Below are positions 2,704 through 62,600 of a DNA stretch of 64,000 nt, one piece after another (position 1 is the first letter of the stretch; every line of letters begins with the position of its first letter). Below the pieces are notes generated by a model that was given only the letters and a program-made list of their open reading frames with translations, had not been told where the DNA came from and ran no database searches. The stretch spans positions 62,001 to 126,000 of the forward strand of contig CALNWN010000003.1 of the NCBI GenBank assembly GCA_940746715.1. Direction: 5' to 3'. The stretch comes from an uncultured Paraburkholderia sp. Its GTDB lineage: Bacteria; Pseudomonadota; Gammaproteobacteria; Burkholderiales; Burkholderiaceae. The position numbers and the translations under genes were made by a program.

Positions 2704-4025
2704 AATCGCCGCGGACGTGCGCGCACGAAAGCGTTCGGCCGTCGACGTGACGCGGGAAACGCTCAGTGGCATCGAACGCGCGAACGCCTCGCTCAACGCT
2801 TTTCATCACGTTTTCATCAACGAGGCGCTCGAACAGGGAACGCGTATCGACGCGCTCGTCGCGCAGGGCATCGATCCGGGACCGCTTGCCGGCGTGCCGT
2901 TCGCGGCTAAAAGTATCTTCGATATCGAAGGTCACACGACGATCGCCGGTTCGCGTGCGCGGCTCGACACACCCGCCGCGATCCACGACGCCGATGCCAT
3001 CGCACGGCTGAAGCGGGCCGGCGCAGTGCTCGTCGGCACGACGCACATGGACGAGCTCGCGTGTGGCGCGACCGGCGAGAATCCGCACTTCGGCCCGGTG
3101 CGTAATCCACACGATGTCGATCGCATGACGGGCGGGTCGTCGGGCGGATCCGCTGCCGCTGTCGCCGCGCGATGCGTGCCGCTCGCGCTTGGCAGCGACA
3201 CCAATGGCTCAATTCGCGCCCCCGCCGCGCTGTGCGACGTGTGGAGCATCAAGCCCGACTTTCGGCAGGCTGTCGCGGCGAGGCGTGCTCGCTTACGCCA
3301 GTTCGCTGGATTGCATCGACGGCTTTGCGAACGATGTCCGCGATCTCGCGGGGCTTTATTCGGTACTCGATGGCAATCCATCGGACGAGCGCGAATCGTG
3401 CCTGAGAGTCGGCATATTGAGCGGGTACTTCGAAACGTACGCATCGCAACAAGCGTGGGACGCGGTGCTGGAAACAGCGTCGCTCATCGGGCCACACGAA
3501 TCGATCGACATGTGCGAGCACGATATGCAGCTCGGGCGCGGCGCGGCGACGATCGTCTCGAACGTGGAGGTAGCGACCGCGCACGCGAATCTGCTCGACG
3601 CGCCGGAAGACACTGTCTCGCCCCGCCTGCGCACGCGTCTCCTCGCCGGCGCGTTGAGTCCGGCCGCGTGGTACGCCCGTGCGCTAAGCTATCAGCGGGG
3701 TTTTCGCGCGCGCATGGCCCGGCTCTTCGCCGATTTCGACGTCATCCTCGCGCCGTGCACACCCTTCGCCGCGCCGGGATTCTCTGACGCGACAATCGCG
3801 GTCGGCAATCACGAACTCGAACCCGCAAAGCATCTCGGCATGCTGACCCACCCGGTTTCCTTCGCCGGACTTCCTGTCGTTACCGCTCCCGTCTTGCGCG
3901 ATGGCAATATGCCGCTCGGCGTGCAGATCATCGGCGCACCGTTCGACGAGGTCGCGTGCTTCGCGGCCGCCCGACGCATCGAGCAAGGCTTCACGGACAC
4001 CTCACGGACATCAATCGAATCATGA
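2684..4025 (+). pseudogene. AtzE-like amidase (amidase signature family), single frameshift
   Basis: 'GPLAGVPFAAKSIFDIEG', 'MTGGSSGGSAAAVAA', 'LGSDTNGSIRAPAALCDVWSIKP' then frame change near 3254 to 'TFGRLSRRGVLAYASSLDCIDGFANDV'. Confidence 0.8.
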
Positions 4026-12130: not shown

Positions 12131-13068
12131 ATGAAATCGACTCCCGGCAACATCCTCGACACGATCGGCAACACGTCGCTCGTACCGTTGCGAAACGTGG
12201 TCCCGAAGAACGGCGCGCGCGTTTTCGTCAAGCTCGAAAGTCAGAATCCGACTGGCAGCATGAAAGACCGGATCGCGCTCGAGATGATAGAAGCGCCGGA
12301 GCGCGACGGGCGTCTGAAACCCGGCGGCGCAGTGGTCGAATACACCGGCGGCAGCACAGGCGTGTCACTTGCGCTGGTGTGTGCCGTCAAGCGGCATCCG
12401 CTGCATCTGGTTTCATCGGATGCGTTCTCGAAGGAGAAACTGGATCACATGCGTCTGCTTGGCGCGAAGCTGACGATCGTCCCCAGCGACAACGGCAAGC
12501 AAACCGAGAAGCTGACGAAGGACATGATTCGCGAAGCGCATCGGATTGCGGGAGAGATGGGCGCTACATTACTGCGCAGATGGAAAACACCGATCAGCTC
12601 AACGCCTATACCAAGATGGCCGACGAGATCTGGGAGCAGACCGGCGGCCGTCTCGACGGCTTCGTTCAGGGCGTCGGCACTGCCGCGTCGCTGCGCGCGA
12701 TCTCGCGGCGCTTGCGCGAACACGATGCACGCATTCGGATCACCGGGGTCGAGCCGGCAGAATCTGCGGTGCTGTCGGGTGGCCCGACCGGGTCGCACAA
12801 GATAGACGGGATCGACGCGGGCTATGTCGTGCCGCTTTGGCACGACGGCATCGCCGACGAACTCGAGAGTGTCTCAACGGACGATGCGAGAGCCATGGCG
12901 TTCCGGCTGGCCGCTGAGGAAGGGCTCTTCTGCGGGACTTCGACGGGAGCCAACGTAACCGGCGCATTGCGACTCGCCGAACGGCTGGGCCCGGACGCCA
13001 CGGTCGTGACGATCATGTGCGACACGGGCATGAAGTATCTAAAGTCGTTCGCGCAAACGATGGACTGA
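12131..13068 (+). pseudogene. Cysteine synthase-family PLP enzyme, one frameshift
   Basis: 'ILDTIGNTSLVPLRNV', 'KLESQNPTGSMKDRIAL' then frame change near 12565 to 'MENTDQLNAYTKMADEIWEQTGGRLDGFVQGVGTAAS'. Confidence 0.85.
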
Positions 13069-13215
13069 TGGCTCCTTTGATACATCGTAGCCGGTACCGC
13101 TTTGCACCGAACGGCAGCCGCCTGCATTGGGTGCACTTGTCACAATACCTCCGCTTTATCTCGGAAGAGATCGTTTCGCAGTACGCATGCGATATCCGAG
13201 TAAATCGAAGCCGTC

Positions 13216-13251: not shown

Positions 13252-13607
13252 GGGGAAGCTGATCAACCATTGAGCAGCGCGCGTCAGGAGAGGCAGACTA
13301 GCCGCCGGTTGTATCGGCGGCGTTGATCGCTGATTCAACTGCCGGGCGGTTCTGCCGCTCGCCGACTAGGATCTGCTGCCGAAACGACTGACGATCCAGT
13401 CTTCGTTGATGGGTTCGCCGCACGTCATCCTGACACGCGACATGCCAAGACTTGCCGCGAGCGTCCACGTCGGCAGCGTAGGGCATGTCGCTTCGCAAAT
13501 CTGGCGTTAGCTGACCGGCCAGTGCACCGCGTTCCGTACGGTGTGGCTTGAGCGTCTTCTGTCGCTCGCGAAGCAGTCGTAAGCTCTTATCAGCGGAGCG
13601 TCCGGAT

Positions 13608-13725
13608 AGGGTCCGGGAGTACGCACTGGCGACTGGCCGTTTCCAGGCAGCGAAATTCCACTGACTGCTTTAGGGCGATGCATTTGACGAGCGGACTGAC
13701 GCAGTTCGACCCATAGGCGTCCTTC
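13608..13725 (+). repeat. Dispersed repeat copy A (about 110 bp), related to reverse complement of 42426-42545
   Basis: GGTCCGGGAGTACGCACTGGCGACTGGCCGTTTCC... matches GGTCGGGAGTACGCACTGCCGACTGGCGGCTTCC... with conserved spacing. Confidence 0.7.
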
Positions 13726-14189
13726 GACCAAGCGTGTCGCCTATGGCGGTTTCTAAACTAGAGCGGTCATTCGAGTTGCCGGCCCGGCCGACGACAACCG
13801 GCCGTAGCAGACACTCGCCGTCAAACTGCCATGCAAGGGGAATGCACCGGTTTGCGGTCGTTCGCGATGGAATGTGGTAGAACGTCCGCTCTCAAGAACG
13901 GAGAACGCGTCCTGACGACCCACTGTGGCCGATCGACCCAACGCGACGGATAACGTGACTTTCAAGGCAAAATGGCTTCGTATAGTCGCATTGGACGACG
14001 TTGACTCGGCCGTTGCTGCATTGACGCCGAGTCGACACTCCGTCGGCAATGTAGCGGCTGCGGACGCTGAGTAAGCGTGTCGCCGGTACCTTCTCCACCT
14101 GAGGGGGTACGCAGGACGTGCCCGCTTGCGCGAGCGGCTACGCGCCTACGTCTACAATGCGATTCAAGATACCCTGGACGTCCACCGCG

Positions 14190-14552
14190 ATGAGCAACCC
14201 TTTGAACATGGACCTGCGCGCTCGGGCGGAGCTGCTGTCCTATCTTGTTGCGTCACATTTTCTTGCGCGGCATATGACGGGCAAATGGCTGTCGGTCGAG
14301 CATGTCGTTGAGTCGACGGGCCTTTGGCTAAAGACGAACGGTGCGGGAGTTGATGTGATGGGGCGGGTGATGTTGTCGGCCCGCGCCCATGATCTGGCTC
14401 AGAGGCTCGAAAACACGCTCGGGTCAGCGGTGACGTCCAAATCGGTAACCGCGCTCTTCTGTGAAAACCTGCGCCCCGATTTCCGGTCACCAGTTGCGCG
14501 GCAAATCTACCAGCACTGCCTCACGCATCTGTTCAACTCGGGATGCTGGTGA
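14190..14552 (+). CDS. Hypothetical protein, convergent to the recombinase operon
   Basis: ORF 'MSNPLNMDLRARAELLSYLVASHFLARHMTGKWLSVEHVVESTGLWLKTNGAGVDVMG...'; family not recognised. Confidence 0.45.
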   Translation: MSNPLNMDLRARAELLSYLVASHFLARHMTGKWLSVEHVVESTGLWLKTNGAGVDVMGRVMLSARAHDLAQRLENTLGSAVTSKSVTALFCENLRPDFRSPVARQIYQHCLTHLFNSGCW

Positions 14553-14561
14553 ACGCGGGCT

Positions 14562-15176
14562 TCAGGCCTTATTGATGCGGCGCCTCCTGCGTTTTTTGCC
14601 TTTCGACGTTGCGACTATTCCCGTGACCACCTCGTAGGCAAGCTTCATGTGGCGCCCCGGTGCCATCGAGATGTCTGCTTGACTGACGGCGCGGTCGAGC
14701 ACCGCGGCATATTCGGGATGACGGGATGCAAGCCAGTCAGCGATGACTTCGTCGTGAATCCAGGTCCGTGCCCAACCTGCAGCCAGTGTCACAAAAACGA
14801 GGTTTTCGTGATGGTGAGCCAGAAGGGCTTCCACGTCTCTTTGCGCCGCAGTCAGTTTTTCGACGGTGCGACCAAGCTGACGTGCTGAAGCAGGGTTCAA
14901 CTGAGCGCTATGCCCGTGGTCGATACGCTTCGCTGGGGGCGTCGCCGCCAGCAGGGCTCGGGCGAAATCACCGCTCAGGTTTTCCTGGCGAACCATAAGC
15001 GAGAGAGTCTCCCGCTGCTGCGCTGGAGACATTCGCTGCAGCGCTTGGACTGTTCGTACAGGTAGCGTCCGTCCCGCAACAATCGCTGCGGCTTCCTCAC
15101 TGAGGCAGGGTGGTGCGACACTGCTCCCTGGCGCACCGGTGCGGCAGACGAATCGCGGGCTCGGCGCTGCTCTCAT
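14562..15176 (-). CDS. RepB/ParB C-terminal-domain-like protein
   Basis: 'RTLPVRTVQALQRMSPAQQRETLSLMVRQENLSGDFARALLAATPPAKR' resembles the RepB partition family C-terminal domain; ATGA overlap with upstream ORF. Confidence 0.6.
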   Translation of the reverse strand: MRAAPSPRFVCRTGAPGSSVAPPCLSEEAAAIVAGRTLPVRTVQALQRMSPAQQRETLSLMVRQENLSGDFARALLAATPPAKRIDHGHSAQLNPASARQLGRTVEKLTAAQRDVEALLAHHHENLVFVTLAAGWARTWIHDEVIADWLASRHPEYAAVLDRAVSQADISMAPGRHMKLAYEVVTGIVATSKGKKRRRRRINKA

Positions 15177-15496
15177 CGCGGCCTCCTCGTGAGGCGCTCG
15201 TGAAGGAGCCGAGGCACAGTGGTGAAACCACGAGTCGTCATGAGCGCGACGAAGGCGGGGTCCCCCAGGAGTTCACGCAGAATCGCAACGAGCTGAGCAG
15301 CCTCGCTGTGAGTAGCTCGCATGCGGTTGACTGCGTGTCGTTGCTTCGCCAGTTCGAGGCTGAGAACGGACTGCGCCTTAACTCGCGGCGTTTTACGCGC
15401 GCCGGCGTTGGACGTGTGAGGCGCGGCATCGTCGCGTGGACGACTGCGTTCCGCTACGCGTGCCTCGCCGTTTTCCCTGTCGCCTATCGGTCTCAT
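15173..15496 (-). CDS. Hypothetical protein (107 aa) of the recombinase operon
   Basis: ATGA overlaps on both sides with recombinase 3' end and RepB-like ORF. Confidence 0.55.
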   Translation of the reverse strand: MRPIGDRENGEARVAERSRPRDDAAPHTSNAGARKTPRVKAQSVLSLELAKQRHAVNRMRATHSEAAQLVAILRELLGDPAFVALMTTRGFTTVPRLLHERLTRRPR

Positions 15497-17082
15497 GGTC
15501 GCTCGCCCGCCAGACTGTGACCCGTCAGTGCTTCGAGCGGCACAGTGTCAGCAATAGCCAGCAGTGACTTCAGGTCCGGCCGCTGGTACACACGAAAGTG
15601 TGTCTGCCCGTGACGGTAGACAACGGTATATGCCCCAGCGACAAGACTTCCGCGTGGGAAGACATGAAAGTCGAGCAATTCAGCCCCCGACCGTTCGATA
15701 CGTCCGTAGACGAGGAAGTCGACAGGAAAGCCGTCAGGCCAGCGCGCCACCCAGTAAGGCACATGCCCCGCGATGAGCCACGGACTGCGGACGGCAAGCT
15801 TGATTCTGAGCCACTTGTCAACGCACAGCGTATCGGTGTGCTTTGCGTACTTTGCTTCGTGACCGCGAGAGCGGAACACTTCCAGAGTGACGTCTGCAAC
15901 CTGCATTTCCACCCGTCGCTCAACGTACCGATTGGCTGAGCGCTCTGCAGCCAGCTTCGGAACATAGCCTACCTGCTTATACGCCTCGTACAGACTTCCG
16001 AATTCGTGCATGACCTGCTCGACGGACGGTGCGCTTCGATAACGCCTCAGCGTTGCCTGGTCCAGTCTGCCTCCTTGCCAACCACTTTCCGCAAGCCCTC
16101 GACAATTTCTTCGCGCGTGGGCTTTCTGCGCCGCGCCTCCATCTTTTTCTGCACGGCCGAGAAAATGCGCCCCTCGACGACCGGTTCAAACGCATTCTCT
16201 GCGCGTATCCACTGCTGACGAGGGACCCGTTGCCACCCAGTGTCGAGCTTGGACGAGGTCCTGCTGTAGACGTTGGTGCCGATATAGGCTTCACTTCTGA
16301 GGATGCGAAGAATGTTCTGTGCCTGCCATGGTCGCCCAAAGCTGTTGCGGAGGCTCAAAGTCATTGAGCCGCCTGGCGATGGTCTCGCCAGTGACCAATG
16401 GCGTTGCATACCATTCGAACATCTTCCTGACGAGCGATGTCTCCACTGCGGACGCCGGAGCGATGACGACGCGGTCATTCTGGACGCTTTTGTATTCGTA
16501 TCGACCAAGCGGCCGCCGCGTCCCGCTTTTTGAGTCAACGAGGATGCGCTGAAGACCGTATCCTGGTGGTCCGCCGGCGTGAAAGCCGCGCTGCGCATTG
16601 AGGCATTGTCCAAGGAAAACCTTGCGGGACATCTCGCGGCTAAACTCTGCCGCCATCGCCCGCTTGAGCGCCTTCATGACGGAGGTTGCGGGACTTGCAT
16701 CGTTCGAGAACGACTCGGCAACATAGATGACATTTACACCTGCGCGCCTGCACGCGTACTCGTAGAACGCCGCCTCATCCACGTCCTGAAAGCGGCCCCA
16801 CCGGCTCACATCGAATACGAGAACGGTGTTGAATCTCCGGCGCGGATTCTGGACGTCCAGCAGCAACTGCACCAGTGCCGGACGTTGCCTGAACGTGAGG
16901 CCGCTCAAGCCAGCGTCTTCGTAATCAGCAACGACGCGGAAATTGTGGGCACGCGCATATTCCGCGATAGCCTGTCGCTGGAATAGAGGTGAATATTCCT
17001 GGTGGTCCGTCGACATGCGGATGTACTGAGCCGTTCGCTGAAGCGCATGGGGGTTGGTTCCGCTCGTCGTCACAAAAGCCAT
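15493..17082 (-). pseudogene. Large serine recombinase, two frameshifts
   Basis: 'AQYIRMSTDHQEYSPLFQRQAIAEYARAHNFRVVADYEDAGLSGL', 'VLVFDVSRWGRFQDVDEAAFYEYACRRAGVNVIYVAE'; frame changes near 16345 and 16065; C-terminus '...MHEFGSLYEAYKQVGYVPK...'. Confidence 0.85.
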
Positions 17083-17759
17083 GGCGTACATCCAAAGGCA
17101 GCACAAGTCTGTAGTAGTGACTTTGGATGGAAAATCAAGTCAATTCGGATCCGGGCGCCCGTTCGGGCACCCTCCGAAGGGAAATAACGAGCACTGGCAA
17201 TGTGTTACGGGACTGTCGGCACAGCAACGCCAAACGGCTTTTTGCCGCGGTTTTCTCCGGCCTGCGAATAAAACCATTCCTCCCTGTGCAGGCGGCTCCG
17301 CCTGGCGCGACTCAACGCATTGCGGAAACGCAGAAGAGGTGATGACTCAAGGTATGTGCATCGATCCATGCGGGGGCCCAATCAATCCTGCGGCTGAGCG
17401 TCCTCTCACTTGCAAAGTGTCCCGGAACGCCCGAAGCATGGACCACCTTGGCGCGAAGTCCGATGGCTCCGCTCCTCGCATAAGGATGGACATTGTGGCG
17501 CTCATGCGCCCGATGTGACTGCATGACCGCGTCGTGTCTTGCAGCGTTGAATGCCGGCGGGCATGTATCGGACGCCGCCGCCCACTGACTCGCAACGGAG
17601 ACCGCACGCAGGCGCTGCTCGATCAACTGAGTAATTTCAGCAGAGCCAGGCTGGGTCTGGCGATTTACATGGCACCGAAGAGCATTGACTCGGCCGACGA
17701 ACTCGATGAAGGGAATGCAGGGCACCCGGGCAGGCAACCTTGAGCTGGATATCAGCCGC

Positions 17760-19385: not shown

Positions 19386-20558
19386 CTATGAACCGACGCT
19401 CAGGCGCGTCGGCCGAGTGATAAGAGCTGACATTGAGATCGAGTCGATGGTTTTTACCCCACAGAGCATCATTGCGCGTCGCGCTTCATCGAGAAGGATG
19501 TCAATGGCGCGTAGTGCGCCGTCCGTGGCCGCCGGCAGCGGCGCCGAAAAGCGCAGGCCTTCCTATCGCGACCGCACGCGCCCCAACAGCGACTGACTTT
19601 ACTAGATCCACACCACGCCGAATCCCGGAATCAATAATGAGCTCTATCCCGCTGCCAACCGCCGCTGCAATCGCCTGCAGCGATTCGAAGCTTGACTCAG
19701 CACCGTCGAGTTGACGTCCGCCGTGATTGGAAATCCAGATGGCGTCAACCCCAACCTGAGACAGTCGGATAGCGTCGCGAGGGTGCTGCACGCCTTTGAC
19801 GACGATCGGGCCGTCCCAAAGATCTCTGAGCCGCGACAGATCCTCCCAGTCAAAGCGCGAATCCAGCATTCGACCCACCTTTGCGGCAATAGTTAACCCG
19901 GCATCATCGCTTCCCCCCAGCCCGCGGATGTTTTCGAATTGAGGCGTTCCCCTTGCGGCGACCTGCAACGCCCACCTCGGGGAGTCAGTAGTTGATACGC
20001 TTGGGGAATGCCAAGCCGCATGGGAATGCCAACCCCATTTCTAAGGTCTCGTTCGCGTTTTCCCCCAATTGCAAGGTCGACTGTGACGACTAGTGCTTCG
20101 AAATTTGCCGCTTTCGCGCGCTCCACCAACGACCGCGTGAATGCGCGATCCTTCAATGTGTATAGCTGAAACCATAGGCGTCCATCGACACTCCGCCTAA
20201 CCTCCTCCATGGAGGTCGTCGCCATGGACGAGAGGACGTACGGGATGCCGCGCTTTGCTGCGGCTCGCGCGATAGCAACGTCAGCTCCACGACAAGCCAG
20301 CGCACACGATCCCATCGGAGAAATCACCAGCGGCGCAGCACTTGGTAGGCGGAGCAACGTGGTACGGAGTTCAGGGTTTTCAACATTGTTCAGCACGCGC
20401 GGAGCCAACGTCGTCTGCTCAAACACTGACCGGTTTCTCGCGAGAGTGATTTCGTCTTCCGCGCCACCGTCGATGAATTCGAAGATGAATCTCGGAAGCG
20501 ACTTTCGAGCGATTCCACGAAGATCGCTAATCGAAAGCGCACGCTCAAGCTTATTCAT
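19386..20558 (-). pseudogene. FMN-dependent alpha-hydroxy-acid dehydrogenase (LldD-like), two frameshifts
   Basis: 'LSISDLRGIARKSLPRFIFEFIDGGAEDEITL', 'GPIVVKGVQHPRDAIRLSQVGVDAIWISNHGGRQLDG', 'AIDILLDEARRAMMLCGVKTIDSIS' in three frames. Confidence 0.85.
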
Positions 20559-21439
20559 TCTATGTCTCCCGACTCTCACAGGCGAACCCAGATACAGCGA
20601 CTCGTTTCGCGAGGGCACTTAACGAGTGATAAGCCCCAGATACCGTGACGTCCCACGCGGCGAGTGCCACCTCTTGCTGATTAACCACCTTCGTATCCCG
20701 TGTGCAGGCGGCCCCATCACCGCGTCTTTCGGGCCCAAAGTCATGATATCGCCGACAGAGTTACGCACAGTGTCTTAAGCATGATTTCAGGCAAATCGTC
20801 AGCAACTCCGTGGCACGTATATCGTCAGACAGGTAATCGATCGATACGACACGATTGAAAAAGAACTGGCACCCGTAAAAAATGCCATTCAAACGCTCCA
20901 TGCGAATCCCGACGTGTTTTCGTTTGGGACGGCCGTCGGCGACCCTGCCTACTGGTGACGGGAGGCCTCAGTCGATTCGCAATGCGAACCATTGCAACGT
21001 CATGACCGCAGCACGGGCTCTATCTGCCGCCGCCAGATCAGCGGCATGAGCACGTAACGCAGCGACGATCATGCCCATCAGCACCCGCATGCCCCGATAC
21101 ATCACCGAGCCGACGTCGTAACTCAAGCCGACCGTGCCTCGAGCGAGGACCGCCTATTGCCACACGACGAACTGTTCGGCGAATAATTCGACGGGCAGTT
21201 GCGTCCGGACGTGAGCACGGTATAGCCGACCGGTAGGATCCCGAGGCCGATCTGGGCGCAGCCGGCATCGGTGGCCGCGTGCTCAAGCGCGGACAGCGCA
21301 TCCCGATGGCGAACGGACGCGACGCGCTGCCCCGCTCGACGTCGATCCTGCCGTGCGCGCACGCGCGGCCGCACGACATATCAAAGCGACGCCCCCTCGT
21401 CGTGCGTGGGCCTCGCCATCAGAACATCGGTCAATTTGA

Positions 21440-61625: not shown

Positions 61626-62600
61626 ATGAGCCTGCCCGGCGGACGCGAGGCGACGCTGCTTGCGTTCGACTACGGTGAAAAGCGCATCGGCGTGGCGGTC
61701 GGCAATTCGCTTACCAGAAGCGCGCGCGCTCTCGTCGTCGTGCAGAATCGCAGCCGCGAATATCGCTTTGCCGAGGTCGGCAAGCTGATTGCGCAATGGA
61801 AGCCGGACGCGCTCGTCGTCGGCTTGCCGATGCACCCTGACGGCACGCCGCACGAAATGACGCAGCTTGCCAAGCGCTTCGGTAATCAGTTGAACGGCCG
61901 TTTCAATTTGCCGGTGACGTGGGTCGACGAGCGCTATTCGTCGGTCGAGGCAGAAGCGAACATTCGCGGCAACAAGGGGTGCACCGACATGCTCGACGCC
62001 GAAGCGGCCAGCATCATCCTTCAGCAATATCTTGGCGGACTTCCCGACACCATGAGTTCCATTGACGCTGAAGCGCCCTATCGCGCGCTGCTCGACCAGA
62101 TTCGCGCCGCTTATGGCGACAAGCTCGGCGCAAGGGAAGGCGCTAAAGGCGCCGAGGGCGCCGTGCTGGCCGGCATCCACAGCGGCGGCGCGTGGCTGGC
62201 CGAGCGCCTCGCGCGCGATCTGAATCTGGCGAGCTTCGGCGTCGTCAATGTCGCGCTGCATCGCGACGACTATGCGAAGAAGGGTTTGCACTCGCAGGCG
62301 AGCCCGACCTCGCTGCCTTTTTCGGTCGACGGCCGGCGCATCGTGCTCGTCGACGACGTGCTGTACACCGGCCGCACGATTCGCGCGGCGCTCAATGAGC
62401 TGTACGACTATGGCCGCCCGGCGGCGGTCGAACTGGCAGTGCTCGCCGATCGCGGCGGGCGTGAGCTGCCGGTGGCGGCGCGCTTCGTCGGCGGCGTGGT
62501 GGACGTACCCGCGGACGCGACGCTCGTGCTCGCACGCGACGAAACCAGCGGTGGCGGCGAGCCGCGTTTCACGTTCCATACCGAAGCACGGGTTGATTGA
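61626..62600 (+). CDS. Single-ORF fusion of RuvX/YqgF (pre-16S rRNA nuclease/Holliday junction resolvase-like) and PyrR
   Basis: RuvX: '[26 protein letters not shown]', '[16 protein letters not shown]'; PyrR from M143 (62052): '[22 protein letters not shown]', '[38 protein letters not shown]'; no stop between. Confidence 0.9.

Follow-up and report, generated by a model that had tools for sequence, protein, structure and literature searches.

What is a site-specific recombinase doing in one operon with proteins of the plasmid-partition type that lack an obvious ParB N-terminal domain? This question is raised by a locus in the 64,000-nucleotide stretch of DNA of an uncultured Paraburkholderia sp. 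that was analysed here (positions 62,001 to 126,000 of contig CALNWN010000003.1; hereafter the window). A preliminary description had proposed a single-strand operon encoding a large serine recombinase, a 107-aa protein and a RepB-like protein, and had suggested a mobile or excision-control module. The operon layout was confirmed: the three units, on the minus strand, end at 15493, 15173 and 14562, and are joined by 4-nt ATGA overlaps at 15493-15496 and 15173-15176. A fourth conserved gene, absent from that description and called ORF4 here, lies at 14190-14552 on the plus strand and converges on the trio. In the account that we consider probable, though well short of certain, the locus represents a minimal mobile module for site-specific recombination that has been inactivated, its two RepB remnants constituting one protein-protein accessory. 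The features of the locus are as follows; short B1 and short B2 are the two small proteins, and the full trio is a homologous three-gene unit with longer partners.

16291..17082, minus strand: N-terminal piece of the recombinase (catalytic domain; PF00239, E 5e-20), 87% identical to the intact P. dilworthii WSM3556 recombinase (locus L046); premature stop after a +1 shift near 16355, the frame break being seen in the DNA alignment.
16047..16334, minus strand: middle piece of the recombinase (PF07508 domain, E 1e-12), in the +1 frame, with 73-75% identity to L046; -1 nt near 16080 restores the first frame.
15493..16046, minus strand: C-terminal piece of the recombinase, in the first frame again, without Pfam match; its stop overlaps the next start by ATGA, and the homologous region is continuous in intact relatives.
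15173..15496, minus strand: short B1, 107 aa; its homology is restricted to the C-terminal ~65 residues of the first ParB-like partner (~300 aa) in the full trio, and within the short clade it is conserved.
14562..15176, minus strand: short B2, 204 aa, the counterpart of the second ParB-like partner's RepB C-terminal region (PF07506), without ParB N-terminal domain and without recognition helix-turn-helix.
14190..14552, plus strand: ORF4, 120 aa, of unknown family, convergent with the trio; found with most relatives of the module and also common alone.
17101..17143, minus strand: conserved, promoter-like block TTGACTT...CACTACTACAGACTTGTG, which precedes the start of the recombinase and is common to most short-form loci.

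The proposal of a large serine recombinase stood as regards its domains, PF00239 and PF07508, which are both present in the window, but the gene is not intact. The frame open from 17082 ends at a stop at 16291, the middle third lies in a different frame, and 15493-16046 is back in the first frame. Alignment of the DNA with two intact relatives, re-derived a second time, places one additional nucleotide near 16355 and one missing nucleotide near 16080. Large serine recombinases were defined as single proteins of >450 aa carrying both a Resolvase N-terminal domain and PF07508; whereas the two domains of the window copy are in different frames, such a two-domain protein is encoded only in the relatives. 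Substitutions relative to L046 fall at third codon positions in 119/157, 48/76 and 95/153 cases for the three recombinase segments, the shifted middle segment thus showing the excess as well. Because this bias is found in all three segments, the breaks are either recent or assembly errors, and the same bias shows past purifying selection on all of the window genes. The source genome is an assembly of 5.18 Mb in 51 contigs, and the breaks may reflect real decay or assembly indels, as other genes of the window are also frame-broken. Cysteine-synthase-like (12131-13068) and FMN-dependent-dehydrogenase-like (19501-20618) genes are each split over two frames. With its recombinase frameshifted twice, the window copy is probably immobile, an inactivated fossil. 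The source genome contains a second trio, of the full-length type (G000:C5, locus L044, 7844-11263), in which the first ParB-like gene is split over two frames; hence both trios of this genome are broken.

A zinc-ribbon C-terminal domain is usual, although not universal, in large serine recombinases. The C-terminal part of the intact L046 recombinase had no Pfam match, to a zinc ribbon or to any other family; in its predicted structure, residues 330-520 form helices followed by a beta-rich part (pLDDT ~80) at the place usual for the zinc-ribbon part. The PDB relatives of the recombinase are large serine integrases, and none of the PDB hits listed for the predicted C-terminal domain was a confident match.

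Concerning the small proteins, the RepB-like assignment of the 204-aa product was retained, its PF07506 match reaching 27.9 bits, just under the Pfam cut-off of 30, and 36-44 bits in relatives; what had been overlooked is that the 107-aa protein is of RepB/ParB type too. The missing ParB N-terminal domain had been correctly recognised and is a property of both proteins: Pfam searches and alignment to the full partners detected this CTP-binding domain in neither, and Pfam recognised no DNA-binding domain in either. Short B2 aligns to the part of the second partner that follows the helix-turn-helix, the alignment gap spanning the N-terminal domain and the recognition helix-turn-helix, with the short stretch before it and the later helices kept. 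Its structural model has confident helices only at residues ~25-80 (overall pLDDT 64, moderate confidence). The best PDB matches of these predicted helices are ParB proteins, at a non-significant E of 2.3, and sequence comparison of short B2 with the PDB gave no meaningful match. Chance homology of the 107-aa ORF was ruled out by its alignments to the full partner and by its conservation in the short clade.

The same three-gene order was found elsewhere, as the preliminary description had suggested looking for. All genes of the operon have intact homologues in identical order, which, together with the third-position substitution bias relative to L046, argues that they are not chance reading frames. 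The closest comparison is with the full trio, annotated on Sphingobium and Agrobacterium plasmids as a 'recombinase family protein' followed by two 'plasmid partitioning protein RepB C-terminal domain-containing proteins'. It shares gene order and overlapping frames with the window locus, and homology extends to the recombinase and to the C-terminal parts of the two partners. However, the full partners, of ~300 aa, carry ParB-type N-terminal parts in addition to the PF07506 RepB region (Pfam, loci L004 and L050) as well as a helix-turn-helix, whereas the window partners, of 107 and 204 aa, are devoid of these. The window therefore has the trio pattern, a recombinase and then two RepB/ParB-type partners on the same strand, with the partners shortened and the recombinase broken.

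A scan of genome contigs recovered seven short trios, none outside Paraburkholderia/Burkholderia: two in Burkholderia sp. OK233 and one each in P. dilworthii, P. bryophila, P. ultramafica, P. sediminicola and Paraburkholderia sp. BCC1884. Within the genus, short B2 was found in ~22/148 Paraburkholderia genomes. A maximum-likelihood tree of 36 recombinases groups the 17 intact ones that have short partners in a single clade (support 100/100) on a long stem (0.82); one loss of the ParB-like N-terminal parts therefore accounts for the data. The short form was seen only in Paraburkholderia-type genomes, in contrast to the full trio, which occurs elsewhere in Pseudomonadota and is also carried by Paraburkholderia, Sphingobium, Agrobacterium and Sinorhizobium plasmids. 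With a full-length-type B2 as query, 22/299 sampled Pseudomonadota genomes gave a match (~7%, counting a small number of partial matches and the source genome of the window); no described function was found for these modules. Loss of domains with retained conservation, as in the short form, is unusual.

Are the small ORFs then decayed, functionless leftovers of full ParB-like genes, beside a recombinase that alone matters? They are truncated relative to the full partners, the window recombinase is itself broken, and several of its neighbours in the window look degraded. However, throughout one clade the small ORFs accompany intact recombinases with identical truncation boundaries and overlapping frames; fusions of B1 and B2 exist in some loci, and both small ORFs display the third-position bias. 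We therefore regard decay as unlikely. Lack of conservation of the small ORFs next to homologous recombinases had been named in advance as a possible refutation, and the check showed that they are conserved in the short clade. Fusion is informative in a second respect. Short B1 and B2 are a single protein in loci L122 and L133, the same fusion being frame-broken in L132, and these three loci branch first within the short clade in the recombinase tree, meaning either that the fused state is ancestral or that fusion occurred more than once. On either reading of this history, short B1 and B2 would work together, and both the fusion and the overlapping frames support their joint production.

The mobile character of the module was supported in relatives of the window copy, by near-identical units (3.5 kb, 90-94%; 6.85 kb, 82-89%) in unrelated surroundings. 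L048 and L049 (both from OK233) and L052 (P. sediminicola) have ~3.49 kb in common, comprising ORF4, the recombinase, B1 and B2, with 89-94% identity and no similarity beyond this unit. A longer unit of 6.85 kb, in which a short trio and a full trio flank ORF4 (short trio > < ORF4 > full trio), is 82-89% identical in G327, G397 and G341 and has no alignable flanks in these genomes. Two further comparisons concern loci devoid of an element: (i) over 7 kb, the ORF4-SRAP-dnaE2-imu locus of G349 (L137) is 85-88% identical to that of L046 and L130 but has no trio, and the homology ends at the ORF4 stop codon, which is the trio's place in L046 and L130; (ii) in a homologue of the L049 left flank without the element, homology ends at the element's left end. 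Taken together, these alignments demonstrate movement or clean loss of entire units, and it is presumably the trio's own recombinase that moves them.

The ends of the units are less uniform. Apparent element ends and the position of ORF4 vary between sub-clades, and no clean two-sided empty site or matching attL/attR pair was found for any unit; for L049 the left half was recovered but not the right side. A candidate empty site for L124 was rejected, as only the right flank (the SRAP gene) is shared. For the window copy, the att-like direct repeats that were to be looked for around ~14.1-17.2 kb did not materialise: only imperfect repeats at chance level were detected, no joined empty site was found, and the flanks are a mosaic of small repeats. 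About 105 bp at ~13606-13730 of the window recur at 75-88% identity in many Paraburkholderia genomes. A 46-bp junction-like sequence, AACGCATTGC.GAAACGCAGA, is common to window positions 17306-17351 and L130 positions 13085-13130, with a similar sequence in L055 (~3180-3250); it sits upstream of the recombinase and close to the 3' end of a small gene, and a neighbouring 95-bp sequence with a hairpin is dispersed in the genus. As an att site this junction was rejected, since no second copy of its core lies across the module in the window and some of the adjacent L130/L055 sequence is dispersed in the genus; as a looser designation, it is a possible attachment region. The 6.85-kb units start ~10 bp upstream of the TTGACTT block, and the block at 17101..17143, a candidate promoter, is thus possibly also near one element end.

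This conserved promoter-like block upstream of the recombinase, together with the operon-like arrangement, would suit short proteins that act as repressors of the recombinase operon instead of as partners in recombination. Yet neither short protein has a recognisable DNA-binding domain, and we consider such a repressor role very unlikely. A function in plasmid maintenance, with the recombinase resolving multimers and the RepB-like proteins helping partition, has in its favour the RepB homology and the frequent presence of full trios on plasmids, many of them conjugative. However, the module as recognised is without ParA, the short proteins are without the ParB N-terminal and helix-turn-helix parts, and several short copies reside on multi-megabase contigs; we give this explanation very little credence. 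The comparison with ParB/RepB partition proteins leads to the same distinction: short B2 shares their C-terminal RepB region (PF07506), but the short proteins lack both the ParB N-terminal domain and the recognition helix-turn-helix, and no ParA partner was seen.

We also considered that the short trio might depend on a full trio at another genomic location, with the DNA-binding ParB-like partners of the latter acting in trans. Such pairs of trios do occur: short and full trios are arranged head to tail around ORF4 in G327, G397 and G341, lie close together in G387 and G404, and are in tandem in P. ultramafica. However, a full-length partner is present in ~12/22 short-B2 genomes and missing from ~10/22, and once five adjacent or close cases are left out, ~7/17 have a full trio, to be compared with about a third of the genus. 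Outside the composites there is no excess of full trios and no dependence is visible, making reliance in trans improbable. In the loci L123, L124, L125 and L050, a short and a full trio follow each other head to tail as a double array, which in three cases encloses ORF4; with the 6.85-kb unit common to three genomes, this is a two-recombinase element.

We return to the module in which the RepB remnants are a protein-protein accessory. In intact relatives, the large serine recombinase would cleave DNA at the termini of its own element and join it again, and in the full trio two DNA-bound ParB-like proteins would assist it. The ParB N-terminal (CTP-binding) and helix-turn-helix parts were lost once, in an ancestor of the short clade. 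Since the remaining C-terminal regions cannot read DNA in the manner of ParB, the function of the short proteins would have to lie in contacts with each other and with the recombinase. The co-translated short B1 and B2 would thus act jointly, through protein-protein contact and not through DNA reading, as an accessory that sets synapsis or the direction of integration and excision. In this account the recombinase would be bound by the short pair. Integration, the joining of attP and attB, is achieved by large serine integrases alone, excision requiring a directionality factor, and known directionality factors have little sequence in common (PMC5311408). Control of direction is our best guess for the short pair, roles in synapsis or stability being close alternatives; the excision-control role put forward earlier is kept as plausible, and no more. 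That the pair represents a new class of directionality/synapsis factor, made of two parts, consisting of RepB C-terminal regions only, acting on the recombinase without DNA binding of its own and descended from two ParB-like partners that lost their DNA-binding halves in a single event, is a possibility that we advance tentatively.

Several characterised systems are comparable. XisF of the Anabaena/Nostoc excisive element is a serine recombinase, and XisH is a further small protein needed for excision. XisI is the RDF of this element (PMC5311408). Here too a serine recombinase requires extra small proteins, but the trio partners are of RepB type, and the comparison with XisH and XisI concerns organisation. 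Phage large serine integrases (Bxb1, TP901-1, SPbeta SprA/YokA) have the catalytic and recombinase domains in common with the trio, and phiRv1 and SPBc likewise encode small partners beside the integrase (PMC5311408); they differ in that the C-terminal part of the trio recombinase has no zinc-ribbon match and in that the partners in the trio derive from RepB. Co-occurrence of the two full partners in the phage collection was limited to one 7.5-kb uncultured contig, and a phage integration module was rejected because no annotated phage carries both. An anti-phage defence system was rejected as well, no part of the module having a PADLOC match. Full trios are visible in public annotation as separate product names and are uncharacterised; no published description of the full trio or of the short form was found in the open-access literature. 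The short form is an apparently undescribed variant of modules composed of a serine recombinase and RepB-like partners. It constitutes a natural deletion experiment on which parts of the partners the module can spare, and points to a role in protein contact. The short trio might also serve as a compact recombinase system that comes with its native partners, a scarce kind: only seven characterised integrase-RDF pairs were counted in 2017 (PMC5311408).

Most of the Paraburkholderia trios examined have ORF4 as a neighbour; depending on the sub-clade, it lies at the 3' end of B2 or upstream of the recombinase. A homologue is present in 120/148 genomes of the genus, in most of it without a trio, and ORF4, for which there is no convincing Pfam match, is an associated gene, not a defining part of the module. 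The family is multi-copy in Paraburkholderia, with up to nine copies per genome, some of them close together. The 3' ends of SRAP genes recur as neighbours of trios, and in L046 (8021-14575), L130, L137 and L055 the trio and/or ORF4 have an SRAP (YedK-like) gene and a mutagenesis cassette, dnaE2/imuB/imuA, as neighbours.
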